23,193 bases of DNA, taken from positions 1 to 23,193 of IMG/VR virus record IMGVR_UViG_3300025645_000475. One strand, 5' to 3'. The notes under the pieces are model-generated. The model was given only the letters and a program-made list of their open reading frames with translations. It was not told the origin of the DNA and did no database searches. Below are positions 7,205-21,926 of the stretch, in pieces. The translations under genes were made by a program, and so were the position numbers. This DNA is from a virus. Position 1 is the stretch's first letter. Each line of letters opens with the position of its first letter.

Positions 7205-9076
7205 TTATGCGAACTGAGTTTGGCTTGCTAACACTGTGAACGTAGCGTCAGCAGTCTTGATGATTGTAAAGTTATAGCTGTCTATCCCACTGGCATTGCC
7301 TGCGCTTGGAGCCGTACCGCCCTGCCACTTAGGTGTGACCGCTGATCCATCTACCTGATACACGTTGAGATAGTACGGAGTTGCTCCATTAGTCAGCAGC
7401 ACAGCCACGCTCAAGCTCTGACCTATAGCCAAGTTAGCATTGACGTTGCTAAAGTTAATAGTGCGGTTAGCCGTTTGATCCGCTGTGTATAGCTCAACAG
7501 CCTGTGCGGTTGTGTCAAAGGTTATTGTGCCTGTAGTAGACGTTTGCACAGTTACCTTTTCATAGACCTCTTCGATGTCTAGCGTGCCGTTTACAGTGGC
7601 AGAGGTTGCTGTAACGCCAGCGAGCGTTGTGGCCCCTGTAACGCCTAAAGTAGTGCTTGCAGTGAGCGAACCCTGTACTGTTATACCGCCAGCAAACGTG
7701 CCACCAGATGAGGCTGACACTGTATCGGCCACTGTGAAGCTTGCAAAAGCATAGACGTTAAGAAGATCGCCTGTTGCAGCGCCTATGCCTAGAACAACGC
7801 TAGTGCCGTTAGATGCAGTGTAGTCAGACGGATCTAGTATCACGCCGTTCATTACAACTTGGATGTTGAGTGCTGTGTATCCCAGCGTAGCGCCGTTATC
7901 GTCAGCACCAGAGAATGTTGTTTGACCAGACGTTGCTGTAAACTCATACAAGATTAACGAGGCAGAGCCGGAAGACGAAGCTGCAATCCAGTTAGACCCA
8001 TCATAGACACGCATTTCGTTTGCGTCTGCCGAGAAAAATAGCGCCCCTTCGACCAGTGGATTTCCGTCATTGTCTACAGTCGGGCCTGTCCCGTCACCAG
8101 GGTAGCCTGTTTTGCTTCCGAGATACTTATCATCAAATGAATCAAACGCAGCCGCAGCATTCGCCGCAGAGGTGGCCGCAGAAGTGGCAGATGTTGCAGC
8201 CCCAGATGCAGAGGTTGCAGCATTAGTTTCAGATGTAGCCGCAGCCGCAGCAGAAGCCGCAGCCTCACTAGCTTTTGTGGTTGCAGTAGTGGCCTGCGTT
8301 GTAGCCGTTGCGGCGCTAGTTGCGGCGTTGGTCTCAGATGTTGCCGCGTTTGTCTCAGCGGTTTCAGCATTGGTCTCCGCAGTTTCAGCAGCGGTCTGTG
8401 CAGTTTCCGCAGCAGTTTGTGCTGTTGAGGCGTTGGTTGCAGAAGTGGACGCCTCGCTTGCTTTGGTCGTTGCTGTGGTTGCAGATCCAGACGCAGAGGT
8501 TGCGCTAGTGGCCGCATTGGTTTCTGAGGTAGCAGCAGCGGCAGCACTCGCCGCAGCATTAGTGGCGTATGTCTGTGCGTTGCTTATCTCACTGGCAGTC
8601 GGACCCGGCTCTGGATCGCCAGACGTTTCGTTAAAAGATAGAGTCTTGCCCTTACGATCATCCTTTAGAGGTAGCTCCATGTCGGTAAACACATCACCAG
8701 GGTTCACAAACAAGCCACGACTTAACTTCTCATCAAGCTGTTGAGCCATAATCACGTTGCTATCGAGTTGTTCATTCAAGCTTGAAGCCAGAAGATCACC
8801 GGCAGTAACGAAGTCTGTAGTCCGTTCCAGAAGGCGACCACCGATTATTGTCAAAACATCTGAGGCGACAACGGCAGATCCTAGAGTAATAGATCCCGTC
8901 CCATTAGCGTTGATTGTGACCGTGTAATCTGCGGTTAGCGTCAGCAGTGTAGTATTCTTATAGACTGCGATATCGCCTTCTGCTAAGATGTTGAACGTAA
9001 AAGCAAACGGACCGGTTCCGGTATTACCTGTGAACTGAACCCGGCGGGTTACTGGATTAATTGCGATATCACTCAT
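7205..9076 (-). CDS. Tail fibre with T7 gp17-type N-terminus
   Basis: The protein has 623 residues. The first about 125 residues (MSDIAINPVTRRVQFTGNTG, then RTTDFVTAGDLLASSLNEQL) match the T7 gp17 attachment domain, which docks the fibre on the tail. Residues about 160-310 are an Ala/Thr/Ser/Asn-rich stalk. A compact module (about 317-368, YPGDGTGPTVDNDGNPLVEG) and a second beta module (about 375-455, whose NGVILDPSDYTAS echoes the N-terminal fold) follow. Next comes a Gly/Thr/Ala-rich region suggestive of beta-helix, and a C-terminal beta domain (about 500-623). It is the only one of the three fibre-like proteins with a recognisable virion anchor, so it is probably the main fibre scaffold for the other two. 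Confidence 0.88.
   Translation of the reverse strand: MSDIAINPVTRRVQFTGNTGTGPFAFTFNILAEGDIAVYKNTTLLTLTADYTVTINANGTGSITLGSAVVASDVLTIIGGRLLERTTDFVTAGDLLASSLNEQLDSNVIMAQQLDEKLSRGLFVNPGDVFTDMELPLKDDRKGKTLSFNETSGDPEPGPTASEISNAQTYATNAAASAAAAATSETNAATSATSASGSATTATTKASEASTSATNASTAQTAAETAQTAAETAETNAETAETNAATSETNAATSAATATTQATTATTKASEAAASAAAAATSETNAATSASGAATSATSAATSAANAAAAFDSFDDKYLGSKTGYPGDGTGPTVDNDGNPLVEGALFFSADANEMRVYDGSNWIAASSSGSASLILYEFTATSGQTTFSGADDNGATLGYTALNIQVVMNGVILDPSDYTASNGTSVVLGIGAATGDLLNVYAFASFTVADTVSASSGGTFAGGITVQGSLTASTTLGVTGATTLAGVTATSATVNGTLDIEEVYEKVTVQTSTTGTITFDTTAQAVELYTADQTANRTINFSNVNANLAIGQSLSVAVLLTNGATPYYLNVYQVDGSAVTPKWQGGTAPSAGNASGIDSYNFTIIKTADATFTVLASQTQFA
8149..8599 (-). repeat. 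Degenerate Ala/Thr/Ser/Asn-rich stalk repeat in the fibre gene
   Basis: Within the fibre gene, residues about 160-310 consist of short imperfect repeats such as ATSETNAATSA, TAAETAQ and TAETNAETAE. The repeat gives the DNA its strong codon-scale periodicity of GCA/GCC/GCG and ACT/TCT codons. These stalks form long trimeric alpha-helical rods in phage fibres. Repeat number is prone to change by slippage and would set fibre length. Confidence 0.8.
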
Positions 9077-9122: not shown

Positions 9123-11588
9123 TTACTCAAACACGTTTGATAGATCTGGAGATCTTCTTGGCGTCATTTCCCCACGGCTCCACCAGTGGTTCTGACCATA
9201 TTCGCGGCGGTATCTAGATTCCAGCCTGCGCTTCTTCGTTTCAAAATCAGGATCAGCCCACTTCTTTCCCTGGTCCAGAACCATACGTTCTAAAGCAAGT
9301 CGGGAATACCATAGGGATGAACCTGGGGTATAACGTCCAGCAAAGGTAAGGAACTCAGAGGCAACATTCGTGTCCTCTCCTTTGACAGCTTGTGTAAGAT
9401 TGCCGATTGTAAGCTTTCTAAAGTCATCTGCAAATCCGACAACAGGACCGGCAAAGGTTTCTGCAAGCCCACGGTCGTATCTGTTTACATCTGAGAATAG
9501 GAAGTCTCCGTATATACCAAGCCCCCCACCCTGCATGAAAGCTGCGCCCCAAAACTCTGGGCTATCCATTGGCCTTGGATCTCGACCTTTGCTCATTTCC
9601 TTTAGCTGCATCGCAAGAGCGCCCATTAGCGTAGTGCTGATTAGTAGGTCTGCGAAGTAAGTTCCCTTTGTCCCAGTAGTTGGCTGGGCCAATCCTCGCA
9701 TGATGTGTGTATTTACCAGGGTAACACCAAACCCCTTATACATGGCAAAGGATCGTGTAAGCTCACCAGCAAGCGTACCTGGGCGGGTTTCGTCTACCAA
9801 AGCAGCACGGCCCCTAATCGATGTGCTGGGGACAGCAAAGTTAGTTTCTGTTTCCACCATTACCAAAAGGCTAGTGGCTAGATCACGGGCTAGGTCTGAT
9901 CGTATGTCGGTGCGCGCCTCGATGTCTTCAGCTCTGAGGAATGAAGCACCCTCATATTCATAAAGAGGAGTTGCTCTTACAATCTCCCAGCGATCTGCAT
10001 TAATGTTGTAGTGATCTAATGTTTTACGCATCATCGGATCTAGCTGGTCAAACGTCTTGCCTGCGTTATCTGCAAGATTACCCAAGAACTCCATGCCAAA
10101 CGCCCACTTGCCAGCGTTGGTCCAAGGGGAGAGCAATGAAGCCCTCATCACAAAGTCGGCTACTCGCCTGGTAACTTCTGGTCCAGATAGGTCTCCTACA
10201 TAGCGCATTTGAGCGGCAGCGAGAGTTGACCAACCTTCAGCGGTAAGGCCCAACCTGACTGCAAGCTTACCCTTTTCCTCTAGGGATAGCGGGTTCATAA
10301 ACTTTAAATAGTTCTGGACCATTTTAGTTTGAGGCAAACCAACCATTGTTCGAGCAATACGGCCAAAATTCATATCAGTTATGGCAGAGATAGCAGCAGC
10401 ACCTAGCTGTGCTGATTGCAATACCTGTCGAATCCCTGCAAAACTGTAAGCTATACGGCTATCAACAGGGGCATTGATGTTTCCGTTTACGTTTGAGTAC
10501 AAGGTATCTATGGCTGTACTCGACCTACGAGCAGCATTTTCTGCGGCTTGATCTCCAGCAGCATCCTTCTGCAAAGTCTGTTTTACAAAATTCACAGTGG
10601 CATTTGGGTTAGGTCCAAGAACTTCCATTAAAGCAATGTCACGAGACATCGTATCGATATGGCCCATCATCGCATCAAAAGCATTTGGATTGCCAAATTT
10701 CTCTTGGTACTCCATCCAGGCATCTGCATTTTTAAATACAAAGAATCGATGGTCCTGATTGCGCAACGCAAGCGACTTGTTTCCAACCATAGATCCAGGC
10801 TTCAGTTTGTTAAAGCCATCTGTAACTATAGTTTCGTGAGCATCTCTCAGCGCAATTTCTAATTTCTCAGGAGAAAACTTTAAACCTGTCTGCTCATCTA
10901 TCATCTTGTTCAAGTCTAGCCGGGTGCGAATAAACTCATTCCACTCATCATAACTTGATTGACGCACCCTCATTGTGTCGTGCATCTGAGGCATACCCCA
11001 ATCAGCTCTTTTAGGAATTGCTCCGCCAGCAGCGTTGAACCTGGTGCGCAAATATTCAGCAGAAGCCTTCCAAGCCTGGGCCATCTCACGGGCAGCAGGG
11101 CTGTCTGTTGATCCCTCGCTGAACACCTCGCGAACCATATCTTTTAGATCGGCTTTATTCCTTGTCTGTCCAATGACATTACGCCGAAACGTAGCTAAGA
11201 AATCATCGAGCTTGCGCGTGGCGCTTCTAGTAACGGCTTGCTGCACCTGGGCAACGCTATTAAATTTAGAGGTTTCGTCCTGTTCAAACAAAGCTTTTGC
11301 GGCGATGCTTTTGTCTGTCCGTCCTGTAATCGTGCGATAATTATTTAGATCGTTGTTGATTCGTTGCCAGGTAACAGCTTGAAGCATAGCGCGTCTCTTG
11401 CGCTCAGTTGCTTTCTTCCTTGCAGCAACAGTTGTTTCCGTAGCAGCCCTAGCTTTCGCGGCAGCAGAACCCATTTGCCTGTTGTATTTAACCTCAAGCT
11501 CGTCAAACAATCCAAGGATCTCATCAGCCTTTTCTTGAGAGATCTGCCCTTCAGCAACACCGTCATTGATACAGTTTTTAAAAGTCAT
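9123..11588 (-). CDS. Internal virion/ejection protein, helical, 821 residues
   Basis: It begins MTFKNCINDGVAEGQISQEK and continues with a long Lys/Arg/Ala-rich helical region (about residues 35-75) and further mostly helical sequence. There are no cleaved signals. Apolar segments near residues 390-410 and 640-660 (LLISTTLMGALAMQL) could insert into membrane. The C-terminus contains GGLGIYGDFLFSDVNRYDRG, then FLTFAGRYTPGSSLWYSRLA, and ends with charged residues. I find no lytic transglycosylase or kinase motif. Position and size suit the C-terminal half of a gp16-type ejection protein. It is coupled to the 1076-residue protein by ATGA at 11585-11588, and the two may be halves of a larger ancestral protein. 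Function is inferred from context. Confidence 0.7.
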   Translation of the reverse strand: MTFKNCINDGVAEGQISQEKADEILGLFDELEVKYNRQMGSAAAKARAATETTVAARKKATERKRRAMLQAVTWQRINNDLNNYRTITGRTDKSIAAKALFEQDETSKFNSVAQVQQAVTRSATRKLDDFLATFRRNVIGQTRNKADLKDMVREVFSEGSTDSPAAREMAQAWKASAEYLRTRFNAAGGAIPKRADWGMPQMHDTMRVRQSSYDEWNEFIRTRLDLNKMIDEQTGLKFSPEKLEIALRDAHETIVTDGFNKLKPGSMVGNKSLALRNQDHRFFVFKNADAWMEYQEKFGNPNAFDAMMGHIDTMSRDIALMEVLGPNPNATVNFVKQTLQKDAAGDQAAENAARRSSTAIDTLYSNVNGNINAPVDSRIAYSFAGIRQVLQSAQLGAAAISAITDMNFGRIARTMVGLPQTKMVQNYLKFMNPLSLEEKGKLAVRLGLTAEGWSTLAAAQMRYVGDLSGPEVTRRVADFVMRASLLSPWTNAGKWAFGMEFLGNLADNAGKTFDQLDPMMRKTLDHYNINADRWEIVRATPLYEYEGASFLRAEDIEARTDIRSDLARDLATSLLVMVETETNFAVPSTSIRGRAALVDETRPGTLAGELTRSFAMYKGFGVTLVNTHIMRGLAQPTTGTKGTYFADLLISTTLMGALAMQLKEMSKGRDPRPMDSPEFWGAAFMQGGGLGIYGDFLFSDVNRYDRGLAETFAGPVVGFADDFRKLTIGNLTQAVKGEDTNVASEFLTFAGRYTPGSSLWYSRLALERMVLDQGKKWADPDFETKKRRLESRYRREYGQNHWWSRGEMTPRRSPDLSNVFE

Positions 11589-14500
11589 ATTGTGCAGAAC
11601 TCCAATCGAGCAATCATTGCATCCTCGCTATCCATCTCACTTTTAAGATCTCGCAGCGTCACAGTAGTGGATTCAACCAAGCCAGTTTCTTCATTAAGCC
11701 GCTGCCCAATTGGAACTTCAAGATCCATGTCTGCGTCAGCTAAAGCTTCTGTTTGGATAAGATCCTCTGCACCCTCGCGCTCTGCGCTTCTGATAGCGTC
11801 TGGTCCTGTTCGTCCACCCGGAGGTACATCGAAGCTAGATCCGAGTAACGGGTTTTCTCCTGAGATTTCTCTGACGGTTTTAGGTTCATTGAAGCCACCG
11901 TTGTTGTCAATTTCTGCATAGCCATCTGCCACGCCCTCCTGTTTTAATGTTTTGTAAGTAGCTGAAGGATTAGACCCAACCCGATCAAGGTACTCTGGGG
12001 GAATAATTCTTCCGGTAGACACAAATCGCCGGATCATACGTTGAAAAGCGTTCTCAGGAGTTACGTCCATATTTACAAGACGAACTTTGTAACCCTTATT
12101 CTTATATAGCGATATCACATCACGAATACTAGAGGCTGAATAACCTACTTTTGGCAGCACAATATTTGTGCCACGCTCTATCATTAATGCTTGCAATTCT
12201 TTTGCTAAATTAGAACTTTCCTCATGCACAGCAGAAGCCCCAATGCCACCTTCATATTCTGGCAAAGTCTTTTTGATCTCGTCACTATCGAGGATTGCAG
12301 ACCTGTTAGCTATGGCTAACTCATTTGCTATGGTGCTTTTACCAGCAGCCGGGGGACCAAGAACTATAGTAAGTTCTTTGTTTGCCAATACTGGCTCAAC
12401 ATCTAAATTTAACTCTTTAAATGCCAAAGCTTCAGCGTCACGCTCGAACCGAAGCATAGCTTCATCCGTAGAAACAACATCCTCACCGTTTATTTTGTAG
12501 ACGCGAGAATTGTGCCAATCATCTGAATCATAGCCATCAATCTTAACGGTATCTGGCCTAGACTCAATTTCATCTAAGGCCGACAAAACAGATGGATGAT
12601 TGTCTATCTGTTCTCTCGTTGAGTTCTGGTCCAGCAATCTGCTGAGATCTTGCAAGCTACCAGGCTCAATCTCATCAGCACCAAACATATCGGCAATAAG
12701 CTGATCTGCCTGCCGTTCCGAAGCTACGCCTGACGGCTCATCGAATCCTTCAAGGGCTGGCTCGTCTGTAACTTGAGATCTAGTGATCTCCGGCGCACCA
12801 TCGACAGCGCGTCCAATGTCGCCAGTAGATACGCGGTCGAAGTCGCCCGATTCAATTGCTCTTCTGACAGCATCGAGGAATCCACCTGTTGCTGCGACAT
12901 AGCTGTTTGTGTCTCTGGCTGTTCTTGCTGCATCATTGAGGGCGTCTGAGAGCGGCCCTTTGCGGTTTGCAAGCGTTTGGAGGAGCGCGATCGTTTGGGC
13001 ATCTGTATTCGCCTTTCTTTGGTTTACGTCCTTTACAAGAACATTTCCTTCTGCCTCTAATCTCTCAGAGTTTCTTACAAGGGTTTCAAATGCTGCCTTG
13101 TCACGGCGCAATTCTTTATAAGCCCGGTCCAGAACTTTAGCACGTTCCACATAAAGGCTTTCAGTTACCAGCTCTTCACCAAACAATGAGATCTGTTTTA
13201 CCTGGTCGGCATCTGATTCGCGTACCTGACGAACAATAGCCTCTGCCTGGAAAGCATTGCTGGGATCTGCCTTAGCCAAAACCTCAATAGCTGCGTCCTG
13301 GAGACCTTCATCATCGATCAGCCGACCCACAATCGCACCGTAGTTTGGCGGCACAACTCCGTTTACAACAGCACCAAACGCAGTATCACTTAGGCCCATC
13401 ATGTCCCTGGCTTGCCGTACAAGCTCAGAGCGTGGCGGAAGCTCAGATATGCGACTAGGATCTACCCTGAGAACCTTTGCTGCATCTATGGACGTTCCTG
13501 TGCCTTCTGCGATGTTCTTCATTGCCGCGATTACACGGGCCTCTGGTGGCGTTATGCCATCTGTCTCACGAAGCTTGTAAGCAAATACCCGGATATCCTG
13601 AGAAGGATCTTGTGAACGTATGCGCTTTGCCAAACCAAGGCGCTGGTGTCCATCTGCAATAGCCATCCGGCCATCAGCATATTCATAAACAGTAACAATA
13701 CCGGCCTTGTACTTATCCCAGGTAGTAATCCCCTGGAGGCGCTCAGTCACACCGAACTCATCTCCGCCCTCTTTAAACTGGAATGTCTTGGCATCCACCT
13801 CAATATCCATTGGGTCAAGATCGTAAATGACGCCATCTAGGTTATCTACCGATCTTTGCGCAGCCTGGGGACTAATTGGCGAAGTTGGCTCACTTGGAAT
13901 GCGAGGTATTTCGCCCTGCCGTACAGCAGCACTAGCATCTGACAGTCGTGCCTCATGTTCAAATTCAGCCTCAATGCTGTTAGGAGACTGTAAAGGGTTA
14001 GAGGATTCAATGTCAGCTTGGTTGTCTAACGCATCAACTATAGCTTGGTCTTCTATATCCAAAGGCTTTTGCAATTTGTTCTTGAGAACATTCCAGCCTT
14101 TGAGACCCTGCTCTCCGGTCATTCTTATAGTTGCACCAGCAGCAGGCAGAGCCGCGCCGAATGCAGCTTGCATACCTACGTTTTTAATGAAGTCCTCATA
14201 ACTGTACTCTAGTCCAAGTTCGTCATACCATTCCTTAACATCAAGCTCTGTTATAGCACCAGCACCAGCGTTCACAGCCGCGCTTTGCGCTATGTTTTTC
14301 CAAAGAGTTTTGGACCAACCTCCGAATGGCATCGTGTAAAGTGTGACAGGATCTCCAAATCCAGTACCCATTGCTCCAACGAATCTTGCTGCACCCCTGA
14401 TAAAACCAGGGTTATTTCTTACAAGCTCCGCCATTTCCGCTTCTTTGTTCTCAACAAAGCTTTTCATGGTATCGTCTAAGAATTGAGGGTTTACTTTTTT

Positions 14501-14815
14501 CAGTTCAGCGGGAAGCCAATCGCTATTCTGTTCAATATAAGAATAGATCTCTTCGGTCTTTGCTCTGTATCTTGTAGGCGAATTTTCAAACAACCAAATT
14601 GCTGGATTTTCAAATTCATTACCAGTTGAATTAAGCTCTTCAACAATTGGAGACCAAACATCAAGCAACGTAAAGTTCTTACTGTTAGAACCAGTGCCGC
14701 CCGTGTATTTCGTGGCATCAAAAGCCTTTGTCAAATTCTCCGTAATAGAATTAGGTGCTTGAGATATCGCGTTTTGAGGAAGGAAATCTAAGGAATCTGG
14801 TTTGTCAAAGTTCAT
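11585..14815 (-). CDS. Large ejection-type protein with ParB-like and zeta-toxin-like domains (polyvalent protein)
   Basis: The protein has 1076 residues. The N-terminal 250 include apolar, Gly/Ala-rich stretches (GFIRGAARFVGAMGTGFGDP; GMQAAFGAALPAAGATI) that could contact membrane. Residues about 335-535 form a ParB-like domain: GVTERLQGITTWDKYKAGI, the DGHQR motif at 388-392, and a helix-turn-helix-like tail (NIAEGTGTSIDAAKVLRVD). After a helical linker, about 812-945 is a zeta-toxin-type P-loop kinase domain: Walker A GPPAAGKST (820-828), LDSDEIKKTLPEY with candidate catalytic Asp (843 or 845), HEESS (864-868), and RRFVSTGR (929-936). Known zeta toxins phosphorylate UDP-GlcNAc. The usual acidic 'D/E-G-T-G' site reads LPKVGYS here, so activity is uncertain. 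Its place among ejection proteins suggests delivery with the DNA. Confidence 0.85.
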   Translation of the reverse strand: MNFDKPDSLDFLPQNAISQAPNSITENLTKAFDATKYTGGTGSNSKNFTLLDVWSPIVEELNSTGNEFENPAIWLFENSPTRYRAKTEEIYSYIEQNSDWLPAELKKVNPQFLDDTMKSFVENKEAEMAELVRNNPGFIRGAARFVGAMGTGFGDPVTLYTMPFGGWSKTLWKNIAQSAAVNAGAGAITELDVKEWYDELGLEYSYEDFIKNVGMQAAFGAALPAAGATIRMTGEQGLKGWNVLKNKLQKPLDIEDQAIVDALDNQADIESSNPLQSPNSIEAEFEHEARLSDASAAVRQGEIPRIPSEPTSPISPQAAQRSVDNLDGVIYDLDPMDIEVDAKTFQFKEGGDEFGVTERLQGITTWDKYKAGIVTVYEYADGRMAIADGHQRLGLAKRIRSQDPSQDIRVFAYKLRETDGITPPEARVIAAMKNIAEGTGTSIDAAKVLRVDPSRISELPPRSELVRQARDMMGLSDTAFGAVVNGVVPPNYGAIVGRLIDDEGLQDAAIEVLAKADPSNAFQAEAIVRQVRESDADQVKQISLFGEELVTESLYVERAKVLDRAYKELRRDKAAFETLVRNSERLEAEGNVLVKDVNQRKANTDAQTIALLQTLANRKGPLSDALNDAARTARDTNSYVAATGGFLDAVRRAIESGDFDRVSTGDIGRAVDGAPEITRSQVTDEPALEGFDEPSGVASERQADQLIADMFGADEIEPGSLQDLSRLLDQNSTREQIDNHPSVLSALDEIESRPDTVKIDGYDSDDWHNSRVYKINGEDVVSTDEAMLRFERDAEALAFKELNLDVEPVLANKELTIVLGPPAAGKSTIANELAIANRSAILDSDEIKKTLPEYEGGIGASAVHEESSNLAKELQALMIERGTNIVLPKVGYSASSIRDVISLYKNKGYKVRLVNMDVTPENAFQRMIRRFVSTGRIIPPEYLDRVGSNPSATYKTLKQEGVADGYAEIDNNGGFNEPKTVREISGENPLLGSSFDVPPGGRTGPDAIRSAEREGAEDLIQTEALADADMDLEVPIGQRLNEETGLVESTTVTLRDLKSEMDSEDAMIARLEFCTI

Positions 14816-17349
14816 TGGACGGCCTCAATTAACTTCAGAATATCGAACCTAAAAGGTGCGCCACTTAAATCAGAAACATATTTCGGCTCACCGTACTGAG
14901 TTGACCCAAAAGTAATACCGGCCATATTGCCACCCAGAGAAAGAACCTGCCAGTCATTTTTAGTATTTATTATTCCGTCACCATTTACTGAACTCAAAAT
15001 ACCCGCATCTACGACCTGATTGCTTGCTGCATATGCGGAGCTAAAATCAATATTGTTTAGTGCGTTTTCTATAGCTTCAGCACTAACACCGGCAGGCAAA
15101 AGAGTATTTTTTCCGCGAACTTCTTGAATGCCGCCAACAGAAACCCCGTCAGAAGACTTCATTCCAGAAGCCATTTCAATTGACTCTCTCCATAAGTCTG
15201 CGGAAAACTTATCTTGGCCTTGAGAAATATCAGCGTAAATCAGTTTTGCAGTTTCCTGTATTACCTTTTTGGTATTAGGTGCAAACTTCAAAGCCTCGTC
15301 TGTTAGTTCCAAAAATATAGATTCTGTGTTTGTAGGAGTAAAATCATTTATCTTGTTGCCAGCTTTTAAATACTCAAGACCCCGAAGCGCAAAGTTGGCG
15401 GCGCTCATATTTCCTTCATTTACCAAAGCGCCGATACCAGCGAACTCTGGGGAAGAGCTAGATATTTCTGAAAGCATCTGTGGAACCGCTGGACCTCCTC
15501 CTTCGACAATACTGCCGAGGAAAGACATCAGTTTAGACCTATCTGTTTGGGGCGATTTTAAAAACTCTGTAAGGAGATCTCTTTCCTGAGCCGTAAAAAA
15601 TTTAGGCTCTACGCCATACTTAGATGCAATCACCTGAGCGTCAACTACACGCTTCTTAACATTAGCTATAACATCAGGATTTTGTGCAGTTGGATTTATT
15701 GTGGAGATTTGTATTTGATTATTGTTAGAATCTTTCACTCCAACATTCATAGCAAAAGTTAATGGATCATCTGCAAGTTGAGTTTCCATATTGCTCAACA
15801 TTTTTTCAGCAAGGTTTAATTGCTTTAGCTCAATAGATGTATCAACCCCCTCTGCACGGAGACCAGACATATAATCAGCAATCTGCGCTGGGGTATATGC
15901 CTGCAATCGAGATCCAAGCTCACCGGTTTCTAATAAAGTTCCAAGCTCTGCTTGCAGATCTCCACGCAAATTAGGTGGGATTTCAGAAAGTCTTTCCACA
16001 AGGCTCGCCATGTCTTCAGGATTTACGGCTATTCCCTTGTCAACGATATCTTGGAATGTGCTTACATCGCTTGATAGGGCATCAACTATTGGCTCAAACT
16101 GTGCCTTTTCCGCATCAGACGCAGCCTTCATAGCTGTTTTAGCGGCTGTTAAATAAGCTTGAGCAACCTGCAATGTTTCAGCTTCTAGCAAGGTATCAAT
16201 GCCAGCTCCCCCTAATCCCTGTATCCCGGACTTGAGAGACTCAACTTCATTGTAAAGATCTTCAGCCGTCATGGATCTATACACTGATGCATTTTCTGCG
16301 TTGAACTCTAAATCTGCAATAGCAAGTCTTGCTGCTGCGCCTTGATCCCCCAGGGCATCTGCGCGCTGTTTCAGAGTAGCAACTTGTTTTTCAGAAGGCA
16401 TCCCACCCAAAGCAAGAACTCTTTCAAGCTCTGCGACTTCCGATACAACAGCGTTATTCTCACCCCTAGTTACGGCAAGAGCGGAGTTATAATCTGCGTT
16501 TAGTGATTTTCTAATGCCTTGCGTTTGGGATAACGTCATGCCAGGGAGAGCTTGAGTCTCCATGATTTTAAGCATTTCTTGCTTTCCCTCAAGTGATGCA
16601 ACATTAAATTCATACACTAGCTTTTCTTTGTAAGCAGCATTGTAAACATTCTCTGCAAATTCAGCGGCTTCAGACTCTGTAGCACCAAGCCCGATCTGAA
16701 GCTCTGTTTCAACGGCGATCTTCTTGTTTATTTCTTCTATGGTCATGCCGGGAAGGATTGCCGATTCTAATATGCCCTTTGCTCCACGTTCAGCAGCATT
16801 AGATCTTTTTATCGCCTGCTTTTGAGCCTGCAATTTAACATAATAATTAGAATACTTTTCAGTTGCCGTAGCAGCAGCACCTTGCAAATTAACTTTTAAG
16901 ACAGAAGATGCAGTTGGATCTATTACCCTGAGAGACTCCGAGTAACCATCAGTTACATCTGCAAGCTGTGACTGAATGACCGAGAAGGGAGTTTCATTCT
17001 TTTCACCGTCAGTCAAAATACGGGAGATCTCAATCTCAGCAGTATTCTGAATTTCAGCAACAGCAACGCGACTTCCAAGCTCATACGCCGCACGATCAGC
17101 AATGGTAAACGCACCACCCTTTTCATCAATAGCCTCTAGTGTTGAGACCGCGCCCTCTTCCTGCACTCGCTCTTGACCGCGAATTGTAGCAGCCCTAGCA
17201 GCTTCCTTAAAAGCAAAGTCGGACATACGATTAAGTTGCTGAGAAAGGTTCTGAGAATATCTTGCCTGCTCCCGCGTATCAGCAAAATCAATACTACCTG
17301 GTTGACGGGTTCTTACACCTAATCGCTGATATCGTGGGAGCTGTGCCAT
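14812..17349 (-). CDS. Internal virion protein, gp15-like position
   Basis: The protein has 845 residues. It begins MAQLPRYQRLGVRTRQPGSI, then REQARYSQNLSQQLNRMSDF, an N-terminal pattern I recognise from core proteins of marine short-tailed phages. The body is almost entirely helical (Ala/Glu/Leu/Lys-rich), consistent with the tube-forming ejection proteins of T7-like virions. The last 70 residues change to a compact beta-rich module (GDGIINTKNDWQVLSLGGNM; GSTQYGEPKYVSDL). No enzyme motif is seen. It is expected to sit in the head core above the portal and to leave with the DNA. It lies between the gp14-like protein and the ParB/zeta protein, and its stop overlaps the next start (ATGA). Confidence 0.75.
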   Translation of the reverse strand: MAQLPRYQRLGVRTRQPGSIDFADTREQARYSQNLSQQLNRMSDFAFKEAARAATIRGQERVQEEGAVSTLEAIDEKGGAFTIADRAAYELGSRVAVAEIQNTAEIEISRILTDGEKNETPFSVIQSQLADVTDGYSESLRVIDPTASSVLKVNLQGAAATATEKYSNYYVKLQAQKQAIKRSNAAERGAKGILESAILPGMTIEEINKKIAVETELQIGLGATESEAAEFAENVYNAAYKEKLVYEFNVASLEGKQEMLKIMETQALPGMTLSQTQGIRKSLNADYNSALAVTRGENNAVVSEVAELERVLALGGMPSEKQVATLKQRADALGDQGAAARLAIADLEFNAENASVYRSMTAEDLYNEVESLKSGIQGLGGAGIDTLLEAETLQVAQAYLTAAKTAMKAASDAEKAQFEPIVDALSSDVSTFQDIVDKGIAVNPEDMASLVERLSEIPPNLRGDLQAELGTLLETGELGSRLQAYTPAQIADYMSGLRAEGVDTSIELKQLNLAEKMLSNMETQLADDPLTFAMNVGVKDSNNNQIQISTINPTAQNPDVIANVKKRVVDAQVIASKYGVEPKFFTAQERDLLTEFLKSPQTDRSKLMSFLGSIVEGGGPAVPQMLSEISSSSPEFAGIGALVNEGNMSAANFALRGLEYLKAGNKINDFTPTNTESIFLELTDEALKFAPNTKKVIQETAKLIYADISQGQDKFSADLWRESIEMASGMKSSDGVSVGGIQEVRGKNTLLPAGVSAEAIENALNNIDFSSAYAASNQVVDAGILSSVNGDGIINTKNDWQVLSLGGNMAGITFGSTQYGEPKYVSDLSGAPFRFDILKLIEAVQ

Positions 17350-17362
17350 TCTTTAACCTAAC

Positions 17363-17815
17363 CTAACTAAATAACTGACCGGCCATGTAAGCCGCTTCGC
17401 CAACACTTGCGGCGGCGCTTACGTTTGCACTTAGCTGGGCAGTTCGACCAGCGGACCTGTATATTCCAGCCTGTTGTGTTGCCTCACCTAGAGCGAGAGC
17501 CGCGTTGTCCTCAGAGATTGAAAACTCTCTACTGCCTTCCGACATAGCAAACATCTGCATAGTTGCAGCCGATCCAGATGTAGGATCTACACCACCAGCA
17601 CCGGCACGGGCAACAATCGCCGCAAGTGTTTCATTTAGATTTCGCAAAGCATCAGAGCCTTGCTGTTTATAAGCAATCGCCTCAGATCGACCTTTTAAAT
17701 CCGCAGCCTGAGCTTGCTGTTCGTAACCCGCTTGTTGAGCGCGACCAACATCTCTTTGCGCACTAGCCTGCCCTAACTTACTTCCAATCGATATGGCTGT
17801 AAAAGCATATTCCAT
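17363..17815 (-). CDS. Internal virion protein, gp14-like
   Basis: The protein has 150 residues. It begins MEYAFTAISIGSKLGQASAQ, a hydrophobic start followed by an Ala/Gln-rich helix (VGRAQQAGYEQQAQAADLKG), a central helix-turn (LNETLAAIVARAGAGGVDPT, with SGSAATMQMFA following), and a C-terminal helix with apolar face (ANVSAAASVGEAAYMAGQLF). Size, Ala/Gln content and the 'ARAGAGGVDPTSGSA' turn fit the gp14 (internal virion protein B) group, the smallest ejected protein, which helps form the outer-membrane pore. GGGGA serves as ribosome site. It follows the tail nozzle gene by one base, as in T7-like order. Confidence 0.75.
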   Translation of the reverse strand: MEYAFTAISIGSKLGQASAQRDVGRAQQAGYEQQAQAADLKGRSEAIAYKQQGSDALRNLNETLAAIVARAGAGGVDPTSGSAATMQMFAMSEGSREFSISEDNAALALGEATQQAGIYRSAGRTAQLSANVSAAASVGEAAYMAGQLFS

Positions 17816-17816
17816 T

Positions 17817-20015
17817 TTAATTCCCCACGCTCAAACGGTACTCAAGACCGAGAACAATCATTTCCAATGGAACATTCTGGCTAATCGTAATCTGCCCCGT
17901 TCCGCTATAGCCCAGCAAGCCATGCACAGTTTTTATGCCAGTGAAAGCCTCTACCGGTGAGTCCAGCACATCCTCGCCAAAGTTTCTAAACGAGATCTGC
18001 TTGCCGTTAATCGTCATATCCTTCGTGCTGTTCACAATAGCATCAACCTGGATAATACGCTTCTTAAAGCCCTGCACAGATCCAGAAGATAGCACCGGCT
18101 CCGCAGGCATTGTTCTAGCCGTGACCGTGTAATTCAAACCAACCTGGTAGCTAGACGTAGCAGCCGAAGCAAAAGTAACTGTGTAGGGAGATGCTGGGAC
18201 CGTCTGTTCTGGCTCCAGAACGCCATCTCTAATGATCTGGACTGTCTCCCCCTCAAGATGCTGTAACGTCACTGAGGACGCCGCTCCGCCCTCCTTAGCG
18301 CTATCTAGCGTGAGATCTGGGTCAAACTTCTCCAGCATATAATTGTCAGTGCCATCAATCGTCCTTTTAACGATCACATAAACGTCTGCAACCTCAACGC
18401 CAATTGCTATGAACTCACCATCCGTTGTAAACCGACTTGGCGCAATAACATTCTGACCGACCAAGATAGAGTAGACAGCCATCGATCCGTCAGTGCCGTT
18501 TACCACAAACAGGCGATCCGACTCATCCGTAGACGCAGCCCTACGCGCCGCCATATCCACAGGGTTCTTGAGCAAGTGAGAGCTTAACGCCGATATGTTC
18601 TGTACCTGATAGGACGCTGTAGTATCGCCAAACTGGAATACGTTGATAGATTTACCCTGGCGCTGAATAAAGATTGACGCACCGTTTAGCTCTTCTATCG
18701 GAATGCCTGACTTTGCACCGAGCCTAGTTTGCGGACGGACAAAGAAGTTGGACGGTGTAATTGGCTCATTGGTCCCTTGCAGGATTACAAACTCACCACC
18801 TGTCGTAAAGATCCGAAAGTCATTGCCGGAAAACAAATTCACAATAGTGTTTAGCTGATTGGTATTAATCGTTGCCTCAACGCTCTCATCGTCAAGACCA
18901 GAGCCAGCATTGAAATCAAAGTAGTTGATTACACCAGAACCCCAGATTGTGTTGGGGCGAGACTTAGATCCGCCGAAATACAACCGGCCCTCATGGAATG
19001 CAGCAGACCGAGGCCAGCCGCGAGTGTTTGACCAAACATCCTCATAGCCATGTTCACTCTCCCAGAAACCAGCGGTAATGGCGTCCGTGTCAAAGAAGTC
19101 CACTTCCGTTACAGCCTTCATAACTGTAGGCGATACATACTCAACATATCGAGCGCGACCAAATGTGCTTGTGACTTGGGCGTATTCGCCAACGGCAGAG
19201 GGCGCAAAAGCCTCCACCTTGTAACCCGTGGTATTATCGGGAGCCGTATCCCATGCGGGGTAGACAGTCAGCACCTTAGTAGAGGCTACATAGTCCTCAA
19301 CGTGCCGAGTCTGACCGGAGCCTGTGCCGGAAGTTAATGTAATGAACATACCATTTGGCTGATCGTCAGTGCCGTAACTAGACGCCGCCTTCAAGGTAAT
19401 TGTATTCGCTCCACCCGCTTGGGCCGTACCGTTGTCAGTAGTCGTCGACGAAGCTGTGATCGTGATATTGCCGGTTGACGCGCTAGGCGTAATTGTAAAA
19501 TCAGGCATATGCGTATCGAAGGCATAGGCGTACTGAGGAAGGTTTGTTATAGGTAGGTTTTCCAGCGTCCAGCTTGTGTCACTGTTGCGCACAAGTCTCT
19601 TGGTTTGAAGATCCTCATGGCACAAAATAAGCGTATCAACCGCCTGGGTATAGTTAATCTCGTCCAGCATAGCGGTAGTGATGTCGGTCGCTGTAATGTA
19701 ATCGTTACCAGATCCGTTAATATTCGTTTGCAAGACGCCGGCCTTAAAGACATAGATCCTTTGGTTAACAAATACTAACAGGTAGCTATCATCAACGCTA
19801 AACTCAAATGGGATTACCTTGAAATCAGTGAAGCTTGAGCCGAAGTCATAGATGAACTGCGTACCATCACGGCGCTTAAATCCGCCTTGAGGCTGAATGA
19901 TTACATTCGTGGCTTCCTCAAGAGCGTTTTTGTATTGAGCTAAATCGGTACGAGCGCGGATAAGCGGATCAAGCTCGCCAACCGAGAAATTGGTTTGGAA
20001 CTGCATAATCCGCAT
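17817..20015 (-). CDS. Tail tube nozzle / tail tubular protein B (gp12-like)
   Basis: The protein has 732 residues. The N-terminus (MRIMQFQTNFSVGELDPLIR, then ATNVIIQPQGGFKRRDGTQF) is the hallmark of the gp12-like nozzle proteins of short-tailed phages: N-F-S-GEL-P, followed by N-I--P-GG--RR-GT-F. The rest is beta-rich, with a central domain that includes HEGRLYFGGSKSRPNTIWGS and a long C-terminal beta part ending EMIVLGLEYRLSVGN. The protein forms the distal tube through which DNA leaves and that seals it before infection. The start at 20015 has GAGA upstream; a second in-frame ATG three codons later is also possible. Confidence 0.88.
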   Translation of the reverse strand: MRIMQFQTNFSVGELDPLIRARTDLAQYKNALEEATNVIIQPQGGFKRRDGTQFIYDFGSSFTDFKVIPFEFSVDDSYLLVFVNQRIYVFKAGVLQTNINGSGNDYITATDITTAMLDEINYTQAVDTLILCHEDLQTKRLVRNSDTSWTLENLPITNLPQYAYAFDTHMPDFTITPSASTGNITITASSTTTDNGTAQAGGANTITLKAASSYGTDDQPNGMFITLTSGTGSGQTRHVEDYVASTKVLTVYPAWDTAPDNTTGYKVEAFAPSAVGEYAQVTSTFGRARYVEYVSPTVMKAVTEVDFFDTDAITAGFWESEHGYEDVWSNTRGWPRSAAFHEGRLYFGGSKSRPNTIWGSGVINYFDFNAGSGLDDESVEATINTNQLNTIVNLFSGNDFRIFTTGGEFVILQGTNEPITPSNFFVRPQTRLGAKSGIPIEELNGASIFIQRQGKSINVFQFGDTTASYQVQNISALSSHLLKNPVDMAARRAASTDESDRLFVVNGTDGSMAVYSILVGQNVIAPSRFTTDGEFIAIGVEVADVYVIVKRTIDGTDNYMLEKFDPDLTLDSAKEGGAASSVTLQHLEGETVQIIRDGVLEPEQTVPASPYTVTFASAATSSYQVGLNYTVTARTMPAEPVLSSGSVQGFKKRIIQVDAIVNSTKDMTINGKQISFRNFGEDVLDSPVEAFTGIKTVHGLLGYSGTGQITISQNVPLEMIVLGLEYRLSVGN

Positions 20016-20939: not shown

Positions 20940-21773
20940 TTATTCAGTGCAAGAAATTTTGACAATGCCTTCGCCGTCGATTGAGACGGAACCAGCAGAG
21001 AACATGGAGCTAACCAAGAACGATGTCTTTTCTGGGACATAGTTGACTTCGGTTTTCTGAGCCATCGACTCAGCATAGCCCATCGAATCTTTGTGCCAGG
21101 CAAAGCAAGTACGAGTAGAAGGCTTAGGAATGCCGCCTTCGTCGCGGTCGCCCATTGTCAAGATGTTGAAGCCCATGAACGTGTTGATCTCACCCTGGAC
21201 AAGAGCTTTTACAGAAGCAAAGTCTTGGCTTGTGATTTCAGTTTCACCGAGCAAAGCGTCAAGCTGAGAAGCGTGCATGAGCAAGTTACGGCCTTCAGAA
21301 GGTACGTTCTTCTCATTCATAGCTTTCGCAGTAGCGCGGAGCTTTTCGATGTTCATGTTTGTGCCAGCACCACCGATTGTTGTTGCAACAGTAGATGTGC
21401 CAGTGGCCGCGTTCAGAGCATCGATCATGATCTGGTCCATGCGACGAGCAATAGACTTAGATACAACCTGTACCAATTCAGAACGCTCATCAAAGTTGAT
21501 GTGGGACTGTTGGAAGATGTCTGAGTATTCTGCTGCAATGTAGTCTTCCATTGTCGCAGTTACTTGGCCGTATGTGACGTTAAGTGGAGTAACATCGGTT
21601 TGTGGTACGCGGAGCGTAGCTACACCTTTACCGATTGTTGGGAACTTAACAGTGTTACCGGCAACGCCGGTGCGGGTCCGCATTGTGCCACGAAGCACAG
21701 ATTCGGCTTGATACGCTTGTTTGACCTCAGAATCGAAAAGATCAACAAACGCGGTTGAGACGTTAATCGCCAT
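20940..21773 (-). CDS. Major capsid protein (HK97-fold type)
   Basis: The protein has 277 residues. It begins MAINVSTAFVDLFDSEVKQA and holds segments of the phage capsid family that I recognise from marine short-tailed phages: RTRTGVAGNTVKFPTIGKGV, ERSELVQVVSKSIARRMDQI, the P-domain-like helix LRATAKAMNEKNVPSEGRN, and the A-domain-like end (YVPEKTSFLVSSMFSAG). Preceding in-frame residues (MKRKRRFLQ) come from the ribosome site and are not used. The start at 21773 has a strong GGAGG (minus strand, at 21787-21783) spaced 9 bases away. It lies behind a structured leader and next to the scaffold, as expected for the most abundant protein of the virion. Confidence 0.92.
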   Translation of the reverse strand: MAINVSTAFVDLFDSEVKQAYQAESVLRGTMRTRTGVAGNTVKFPTIGKGVATLRVPQTDVTPLNVTYGQVTATMEDYIAAEYSDIFQQSHINFDERSELVQVVSKSIARRMDQIMIDALNAATGTSTVATTIGGAGTNMNIEKLRATAKAMNEKNVPSEGRNLLMHASQLDALLGETEITSQDFASVKALVQGEINTFMGFNILTMGDRDEGGIPKPSTRTCFAWHKDSMGYAESMAQKTEVNYVPEKTSFLVSSMFSAGSVSIDGEGIVKISCTE

Positions 21774-21782
21774 TTGCAAAAA

Positions 21783-21926
21783 CCTCCTTTTGCGTTTCAA
21801 TTAAACGCTTCCGTTATCCGAGGTTCCGGGCGGTCGCTTGCGCGTTATGGCCGCGCCAACCAGTAGATTACTACATCCAACGGGCCGAGCACGGTTAGCC
21901 GTTAAGGCTAAAATACACGCAAGCGA
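21783..21926 (-). promoter_or_regulatory. Structured 5' leader of the capsid gene
   Basis: The 172-base gap between scaffold and capsid genes is the only sizeable one in the late operon and is full of complementary segments. A perfect 9-bp pair TCGCTTGCG (21834-21842) / CGCAAGCGA (21918-21926) encloses two perfect hairpins: GTAG/CTAC (21863-21866/21871-21874, loop ATTA) and TTAGCC/GGCTAA (21895-21900/21906-21911, 5-base loop). A further hairpin GCGTTT/AAACGC (21792-21797/21803-21808, 5-base loop) stands just upstream of the GGAGG ribosome site (minus strand, 21783-21787). A role in mRNA processing, stability or initiation of capsid synthesis is inferred; a phage promoter here is also possible, though no consensus was recognised. 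Confidence 0.55.

Follow-up and report, generated by a model that had tools for sequence, protein, structure and literature searches.

The protein P0001, encoded in a 23,193-nucleotide stretch of viral DNA (positions 1 to 23,193 of the IMG/VR record IMGVR_UViG_3300025645_000475; this whole stretch is hereafter called the window), is probably an ejection-type virion protein with an exchangeable effector cartridge. The cartridge found in the window, of the zeta type, would be a self-contained pair of a kinase and a small gene nested within it. P0001 is a minus-strand open reading frame (ORF) of 1076 residues with an ATG start (11585-14815), classified as a polyvalent ejection-type protein from its ORF and from Pfam and PHROG searches; all other features given below lie on the same strand. 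Residues 716-1028 (11732-12670) form the cartridge, flanked by a constant arm and a constant tail of 48 residues (residues 1029-1076; 11588-11731). In relatives of P0001, this slot holds a zeta-like kinase, a Tas1-like alarmone synthetase, a class called a3 with an alarmone-synthetase fold, or nothing. The original prediction, made from the sequence alone, had described a probable ejected virion protein with ParB-like and zeta-toxin-like domains; it missed that the slot has at least three alternative occupants, of which the kinase is one.

Several of ten translated relatives agree with P0001 up to residue ~715 and again over the final 48 residues, but not in between. A scan with the arm yielded 186 loci, 80 of which were analysed (loci of separate scans may be one contig). 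Sixty-eight of these 80 are closed ORFs with nearly the whole arm, and comprise 28 zeta-like, 26 Tas1-like, 8 a3 and 6 empty forms; the other 12 are open-ended or partial. Once near-copies are removed, 52 rows remain (22 Tas1-like, 19 zeta, 7 a3 and 4 empty). The tail is present with every cartridge class and with empty slots: a model of the last 48 residues, built from the same rows, matches the C-terminus of 119/120 rows, and a model built from the zeta rows alone finds all of the other nonredundant rows (22/22 Tas1-like, 12/12 a3 and 5/5 empty; 39/39). The exception, the Tas1-like locus L020, stops inside its cartridge, within a few codons of the contig end. The tail probably serves the carrier, for instance in packing, and is a candidate packing signal.

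The exchange is visible at the nucleotide level in closely related loci. The window and L005 are 92.3% identical over 8.0 kb up to codon ~715, dissimilar in the cartridge and again 95.5% identical over the next 3.1 kb. For the window and L002, which both carry a zeta cartridge, the identity of 94.6% runs unbroken through the slot. Identity between L028 (zeta) and L044 (a3) reaches 97.8% on one side of the slot and 98.7% on the other, with 96% in the last 1.2 kb of the arm, and L031, the arm of which is close to that of L028, carries a Tas1-like cartridge. Besides window/L005, five further swap pairs were found (L028/L031, L028/L044, L038/L039, L040/L070 and L053/L065). Relative to L035, L034 lacks its cartridge, an in-frame loss of 234 codons that lies between two copies of GATGATA; L045 matches L034 in length and remnant. 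An assembly artefact was rejected as the sole explanation: the zeta junction recurs in the window, L002 and L003, and the Tas1-like one in L005, L006 and L008, loci that stem from metagenomes with different numbers. The window and L003 are 99.4% identical over 9.5 kb, through codon 1026.

A tree was built of 80 arms, namely the 52 nonredundant rows, the window, the isolated phage SI2 and 26 rows from cartridge scans, which favour zeta and a3. The cartridge labels change 24 times on this tree (minimum 3), compared to a mean of 34.2 after shuffling, with 0/200 shuffles as low; the number of changes being below that of every shuffle, the cartridge type is to some extent inherited. The a3 label alone is scattered as if by chance (11 changes, 234/500 shuffles as low). 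As the tree is a quick one with long branches, the argument is carried by the shallow pairs. Synonymous divergence (dS) is lower in the middle segment (residues 536-715; 12671-13210), which is conserved and forms the left border of the slot, than in the N-terminal arm in 13/14 pairs, saturated arms being counted as higher, and the order is reversed in L035/L036. This dS pattern suggests recombination through the flanks of the slot. In L035/L036, the N-terminal arm has a dS of 0.03 whereas the ParB part is saturated, which points to within-gene recombination. The ratio of nonsynonymous to synonymous divergence (dN/dS) of the cartridges lies between 0.047 and 0.284 in 13/14 pairs, on which ground a decay of the cartridges was rejected; by this measure, the cartridges are under purifying selection.

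The kinase core of the window's cartridge spans residues 811-990 (11846-12385). Its motifs (GPPAAGKST 820-828, which is the Walker A motif, DSDEIKK 843-849, HEESS 864-868, RMIRRF 926-931 and GR 935-936) were located at the residues listed, and the Pfam family Zeta_toxin (PF06414) matches residues 813-973 with an E-value of 5.2e-19 (68.9 bits against a cut-off of 22.3). Full-length P0001 was modelled with AlphaFold from 30 alignment rows; the predicted local distance difference test score (pLDDT) has block values of 80-94 over residues 721-970 and an overall mean of 65. With VIA-align, the best matches of the model are zeta toxin (1gvn; Z 16.5, root-mean-square deviation 2.8, 199 residues aligned) and PezT (2p5t; Z 15.2). 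These matches are taken up by the kinase, and the other parts of the protein are barely covered. Foldseek also ranks zeta and PezT first (7e-7).

The two other cartridge classes are related to alarmone synthetases. From 15 aligned rows, the Tas1-like class matches Tas1, a type VI effector of solved structure, with an E-value of 5e-16; it is not recognised by Pfam. All 15 rows have DRK at the acceptor motif where Tas1 has GVN, a motif of the GxN type described as syn3 of synthetases (PMC12226406). The a3 class has no sequence match in the PDB, and nothing credible was found in Pfam for one a3 example; hhalign links it to the Tas1-like class, in part through low-complexity sequence. The a3 model (mean pLDDT 92.7) has the fold of a small alarmone synthetase, with a Z of 15.6 to the exported synthetase 8vx3 and 12.9 to Tas1, and Foldseek points to this fold as well. 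Searches of NCBIfam and PADLOC with one example per alternative class gave no match, and tblastn with one example per class gave none in 50,697 phage records. In L031, L064 and L078, a second ParB-like stretch (DGNSTYAIA or DGNSTYSIA, by eye) stands ahead of the Tas1-like enzyme.

Cartridges also occur outside the P0001 family. Two cartridge scans gave 104 loci, 50 of which are full rows of the family; the remainder are partial or belong to other carriers. Among these, L108 (a3) and L134 (zeta), both longer than 2600 residues and encoded by other phages, share 89% identity over 1648 columns and 73% over 514, and the slot separates these two stretches. L133 reads by eye like a portal protein fused to the kinase.

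Within the zeta cartridge, a second frame is kept open and conserved as a protein, wholly inside the swapped DNA. In the window, it is a +1-frame ORF of 61 codons (11740-11925), the ATG of which overlaps the ADG codons of the kinase (residues 963-965). A perfect AGGAGG lies nine bases upstream of this ATG, and the ORF ends nine bases short of the right border of the swapped DNA. In 41 nonredundant zeta rows of the family, an unbroken run of 61 codon columns shows no +1 stop in at least 95% of the rows, whereas synonymous shuffles of these rows give 14 open columns on average and 26 at most (0/60 reach 61). The longest run in the +2 frame is 11, with 56/60 shuffles as long. When tested one sequence at a time, the nested ORF looked ordinary (10/20 rows; shuffles reach the observed run in 5 to 170 of 200); however, seven of these 10 runs share one end of the cartridge, and the joint test over the 41 rows is decisive.

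Under a rule requiring an ATG over xDG and at least 45 codons, 82/109 zeta rows, taken over all carriers, have the nested ORF, which gives 55 different peptides, mostly 57-67 residues long; it is present in 36/41 family rows and in 18/19 rows of the arm scan; the missing one, L091, has an open frame with a similar peptide. In L133, L135, L155 and L183, the kinase has GAC where others have GAT, hence the nested ATG is missing. Shine-Dalgarno-like sites of at least four bases precede 40/55 of the distinct ORFs, and sites of at least five bases 23/55, compared to 7.8% and 0.7% at control places in the cartridge.

The substitution pattern points in the same direction. Frame-0 dS falls across the nested stretch in 7/7 pairs (from 0.65 to 0.20 in L085/L095, for example). 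In 10 zeta pairs, the change at third positions drops from 0.28 to 0.13 in the nested stretch, and that at first positions is steady (0.10 and 0.12), as expected because frame-0 third positions are the second positions of the other coding frame. Caution is needed, as synonymous change also drops toward the tail in the synthetase pairs L019/L021, L035/L036 and L053/L066, perhaps from recombination near the conserved tail; in those pairs, the first-position change falls or stays low, whereas the summed zeta pairs show no fall.

In five further loci and pairs with other carriers (L161/L162, L167, L170, L171 and L178), the toxin ends 32 residues after the nested start point, and the small ORF extends 82-103 bases beyond the toxin end. 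These are short zeta proteins (286-536 residues in the sequence at hand) with a partner overlapping the toxin end, which is a more ordinary toxin-antitoxin layout. Homology between the nested and the solo genes was tested on residues 26 onward; the first 8-10 residues shadow the conserved kinase residues ADGYAEIDNNG. A profile of the latter halves lying mostly outside toxin ORFs finds 13/50 of the nested +1 halves at E<0.01, compared to 0/50 in frame 0, 0/50 in frame +2 and 0/250 residue shuffles. In the reverse direction, a nested profile finds L162 (3e-11) and L178 (2e-8) of the five solo genes in the first profile, reaches L170 only at E 0.11 and misses L167 and L171; this search recovers 19/34 peptides, several of them near-copies of training rows. 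An alignment of 38 of the 55 distinct peptides, with near-copies and odd lengths omitted, shows a variable middle and a latter half that often reads FDYxxAExRA...V..VLKKL.

We infer that the nested small protein is the antitoxin of the zeta-like kinase. A conserved small partner gene is linked to the kinase, as in a toxin-antitoxin pair in the wide sense, and its product would neutralise the kinase. The absence of an epsilon-type antitoxin nearby, as originally reported, stands for the adjacent genes and overlooks this conserved +1-frame gene, a candidate antitoxin; the gene also makes it probably wrong that control relies on packing alone. It is somewhat unlikely that the nested gene is real and encodes something else, such as a second small effector, a packing chaperone or a regulator. 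The small protein has no known family, and in the PDB it gives weak rows only, one of them a flagellar chaperone (E 0.07), which would fit such a role. It accompanies the zeta-type kinase in many different carriers and is unseen with the other cartridge classes, as for a cognate partner. In the Tas1-like class (22 rows), the longest open runs are 16 (7/60 shuffles as long) and 14 columns (0/60, but short), and in the a3 class (12 rows), 24 (19/60) and 11 (5/60).

P0001 sits in a run of late genes, all on one strand, coding for head, tail, internal virion and tail fibre proteins; the late genes suggest a podovirus-type phage. Both neighbours overlap P0001 by four bases. Downstream, the start of an 821-residue virion structural protein (9123-11588; phrog_684) overlaps the P0001 stop. 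Relatives of this neighbour occur in 113 phage records, the commonest names being Vibrio (40), Pelagibacter (14), Escherichia (13), Salmonella (12) and Pseudomonas (11). Upstream, the stop of an 845-residue protein (14812-17349) overlaps the P0001 start; it is an ejection protein by position only, and neither PHROG (E up to 0.1) nor tblastn against the 50,697 phage records gave a match. Further genes are those for a 150-residue internal virion protein (17363-17815; phrog_418), a 732-residue tail protein (17817-20015; phrog_376), the major head protein (20940-21800; phrog_3437) and a tail fibre protein (7205-9076; PHROG search). The PHROG matches of these neighbours bear out the place among head, tail and internal virion genes that the gene had been given. 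In the isolate SI2, the scaffold is found at the same gene place, with an empty slot. Furthermore, two empty-slot relatives match the internal virion protein family phrog_342, weakly (E 1.3e-6 and 1e-8); P0001 itself has no phrog_342 or transglycosylase match in the Pfam and PHROG searches.

Packaging and ejection of P0001 are thus proposed from its gene context. That P0001 stays unpackaged, with kinase and partner acting as a toxin-antitoxin pair inside the infected cell, for example against co-infecting phages, is improbable: virion presence is deduced from genes and such a pair could operate in the producing cell, but the four-base overlaps with virion-type neighbours, the same gene place in SI2 and the phrog_342 matches of the two empty relatives argue for a virion protein.

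As for the host and lifestyle, an integrase (PF00589) was found in 3/39 chosen records, the completeness of which is unknown. The T7-type RNA polymerase (PF00940) was found in 0/39 records but also in 0/14 controls, and so is uninformative. Four loci come from bacterial genomes. Three match the ParB region within proteins of 2613 to at least 3701 residues; the fourth, L202, is a 776-residue empty-slot form on a contig of a Rhodobacteraceae metagenome-assembled genome, and may point to this host group, the contig being possibly misbinned. By term search, a paper on a Sulfitobacter podovirus mentions neither ParB nor zeta nor toxin (PMC10386132).

In the kinase of P0001, the catalytic residues K46, D67 and R158 of zeta have K826, D845 and R930 as counterparts, conserved in 96/97, 97/97 and 97/97 distinct cartridge rows. 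The counterpart of R171 may, by eye, be R936 (R in 95/97 rows), a position outside the zeta alignment. The sites of E116 and T118 are P888 and V890; the first is P in 106/109 cartridge rows, and the second is V in 103/109 and T in four. The acceptor-site motif is PKVG (888-891) in P0001, with DGTG in cyanophage PSS2 and DKVA in HCTV-5. Both the zeta-like kinase and the Tas1-like cartridge retain the catalytic core, with a changed acceptor site. As E116 and T118, which serve UDP-GlcNAc, are not kept, the cell-wall target that had been proposed for the kinase is doubtful, and its acceptor is probably not UDP-GlcNAc bound in the classical way. Another UDP-sugar is conceivable, given that the gonococcal zeta is reported to phosphorylate UDP-MurNAc using other residues (PMC5923241).

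That the cartridges are counter-defence enzymes, such as a repair enzyme similar to polynucleotide kinases, and that swapping tracks the defences of the host, is quite improbable. The best single-sequence PDB match of the kinase is the RNA-repair kinase Pnkp1 (E 1e-4), and in VIA-align, the next best matches after zeta and PezT are AvrRxo1 (14.1) and then polynucleotide kinases (Z ~13), but zeta toxins align over more residues and with the higher Z given above, a defence library gave one weak match only (E 0.032), and a conserved partner gene is better suited to a toxin. Least credible of all is a zeta toxin of the classical kind that, once ejected, would phosphorylate UDP-GlcNAc and thereby halt synthesis of the host cell wall, with packing as its sole control: it would agree with the Zeta_toxin match, the best fold match, the kept catalytic sites and the description of phage zeta kinases fused to MuF (PMC5512222), but the E116 and T118 sites are changed in nearly all rows, and it is reported that the E116A zeta loses ATPase activity and toxicity (PMC6356619) and that a PezT variant with valine at the T118 counterpart is nontoxic (PMC3062530).

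The remaining parts of P0001 belong to the carrier. The N-terminal scaffold arm (residues 1-329; 13829-14815) is largely helical, diverges fast and has a weak phrog_8824 match; its profile gave only spurious ubiquitin-type rows against the PDB. The ParB/Noc-like domain with its helical extension (residues 330-535; 13211-13828) belongs with phrog_10691 (1e-68), without a Pfam match or a credible PDB sequence match. The DGHQR motif (388-392) is invariant in 30/30 aligned rows, including the window, and Foldseek matches this part to Noc/ParB structures (7nfu, E 2.7e-4; 6t1f, 9.8e-4). In the model, residues 330-535 show both the fold and the active-site motif of the ParB/Srx superfamily. The presence of ParB-like and zeta-family domains in P0001, as originally predicted, is thereby confirmed by motifs, by Pfam for the kinase, and by the structural comparison with ParB and zeta/PezT that had been suggested as a check. 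An optional insert of ~80-90 residues right before the ParB-like domain in L010, L011, L040, L044, L068 and L070 constitutes a second variable site. In L168, L174 and L180, the arm, zeta cartridge, nested ORF and tail occur without the ParB part, so that the ParB block is seemingly removable too.

The components of this system are known from other contexts. Polyvalent proteins (Iyer et al. 2017, PMC5512222) include ParB-type, zeta-like and RelA/SpoT domains among their components and, like P0001, unite disparate enzymatic domains in a single large phage late protein. The polyvalent architecture attributed to P0001 is therefore appropriate, as at least two disparate domains lie within one phage late protein. 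In that work, zeta kinases occur in conjugative elements or MuF fusions, and a reloadable slot and a nested partner gene are not described in the part of the text available. The polymorphic MuF toxins of temperate phages (Jamet et al. 2017, PMC5576092; Apk2, PMC12226406) resemble P0001 in their constant virion-type N-terminal carrier, variable toxins, which include (p)ppApp synthetases, proposed head loading and partner immunity genes; according to these reports, 89.4% of 191 are followed by a small ORF. However, the MuF family is absent from the Pfam matches (E up to 1) of P0001, five family members and one other carrier, and the cartridge is internal, with a constant tail. In addition, the candidate partner of the zeta cartridge is nested and not downstream, where the next gene is that of the 821-residue virion protein, and none was seen for the synthetases.

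With epsilon/zeta and PezAT, the P0001 cartridge shares the kinase fold, the Walker A motif, the sites of the catalytic Asp and Arg, and a small partner gene. In contrast to these systems, the partner is nested in or overlaps the toxin 3' end in the +1 frame and has no credible PDB match, E116/T118 are not kept, the kinase is part of a 1076-residue protein, and there is no separate adjacent antitoxin gene. The type VI effector Tas1/Apk1 and the small alarmone synthetases match one cartridge class in sequence and the other in fold. Gp114 of the haloarchaeal tailed virus HCTV-5, annotated as a zeta toxin and ParB nuclease domain protein, combines both kinds of domains in one head-region protein of 1293 residues, as P0001 does, but only its kinase part aligns to P0001. 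Finally, T7 gp16 resembles P0001 in its place among internal virion genes before the tail fibre and through the weak phrog_342 matches of the two empty relatives, from which P0001 itself differs as noted above. A literature search, covering titles and abstract openings with few subscription journals, gave no recognised MuF-free ejection-type carrier with an internal reloadable slot; among the matches listed, it gave no antitoxin nested in a toxin gene and no zeta-type kinase with a nested partner. The polyvalent, MuF and epsilon/zeta components are hence known, and the MuF-free reloadable slot and the zeta kinase with a nested partner gene are apparently new.

In the mechanism proposed, the slot near the C-terminus of P0001, bracketed by the constant arm and the tail, would receive alternative effector cartridges. 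While virions are built, the small protein of the nested gene would shield the producing cell; the large protein would be packed without the small one, which would stay behind in the producer. A few copies of P0001 would then be ejected alongside the DNA, and its C-terminal part may reach the host cytoplasm, by analogy with T7 gp16, the C-terminal part of which is modelled there as six copies (PMC8954989). The kinase would phosphorylate a nucleotide-type host molecule, and the host would be slowed or redirected. The scheme in its fullest form is put forward tentatively, as somewhat less than an even chance: a podovirus-type ejection protein would bear a polymorphic effector system, one cartridge of which is a toxin-antitoxin module in its own right, its antitoxin gene nested in the toxin gene; one recombination would swap weapon and antidote, virions would carry the large protein only, and the remodelled acceptor pockets predict new substrates.

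Several points weigh against this scheme. The virion presence of P0001 is deduced from gene context, its N-terminal arm is modelled poorly, and no isolate with the scaffold and an occupied slot was found among 37 phage records with a match. By the rule, 27/109 zeta rows have no nested ORF, some of them due to GAC for GAT or to the end of the available DNA. The small protein has no Pfam family (E up to 1) and no credible PHROG or PDB match. A built-in antitoxin is not a general feature, since neither synthetase class shows signs of a nested gene, and the protection of the producers of synthetase cartridges is unexplained by the scheme. Moreover, the cartridge dN/dS of window/L018 is 2.09, with hardly any synonymous change.

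The nested gene is a small, definite and testable prediction, of a kind that gene callers tend to overlook because of the overlap with a longer ORF. The altered acceptor sites (PKVG and DRK) predict new substrates. Natural near-isogenic sets with a zeta-like kinase, a Tas1-like enzyme, the second synthetase class or an empty slot are available to probe the action of an ejected effector on the host. If the proposed scheme is true, these phages would carry a modular port for enzyme delivery, the contents of which turn over faster than the carrier, and the zeta-type load would bring its own antidote in the same DNA, which would explain how loads can be swapped in one step.

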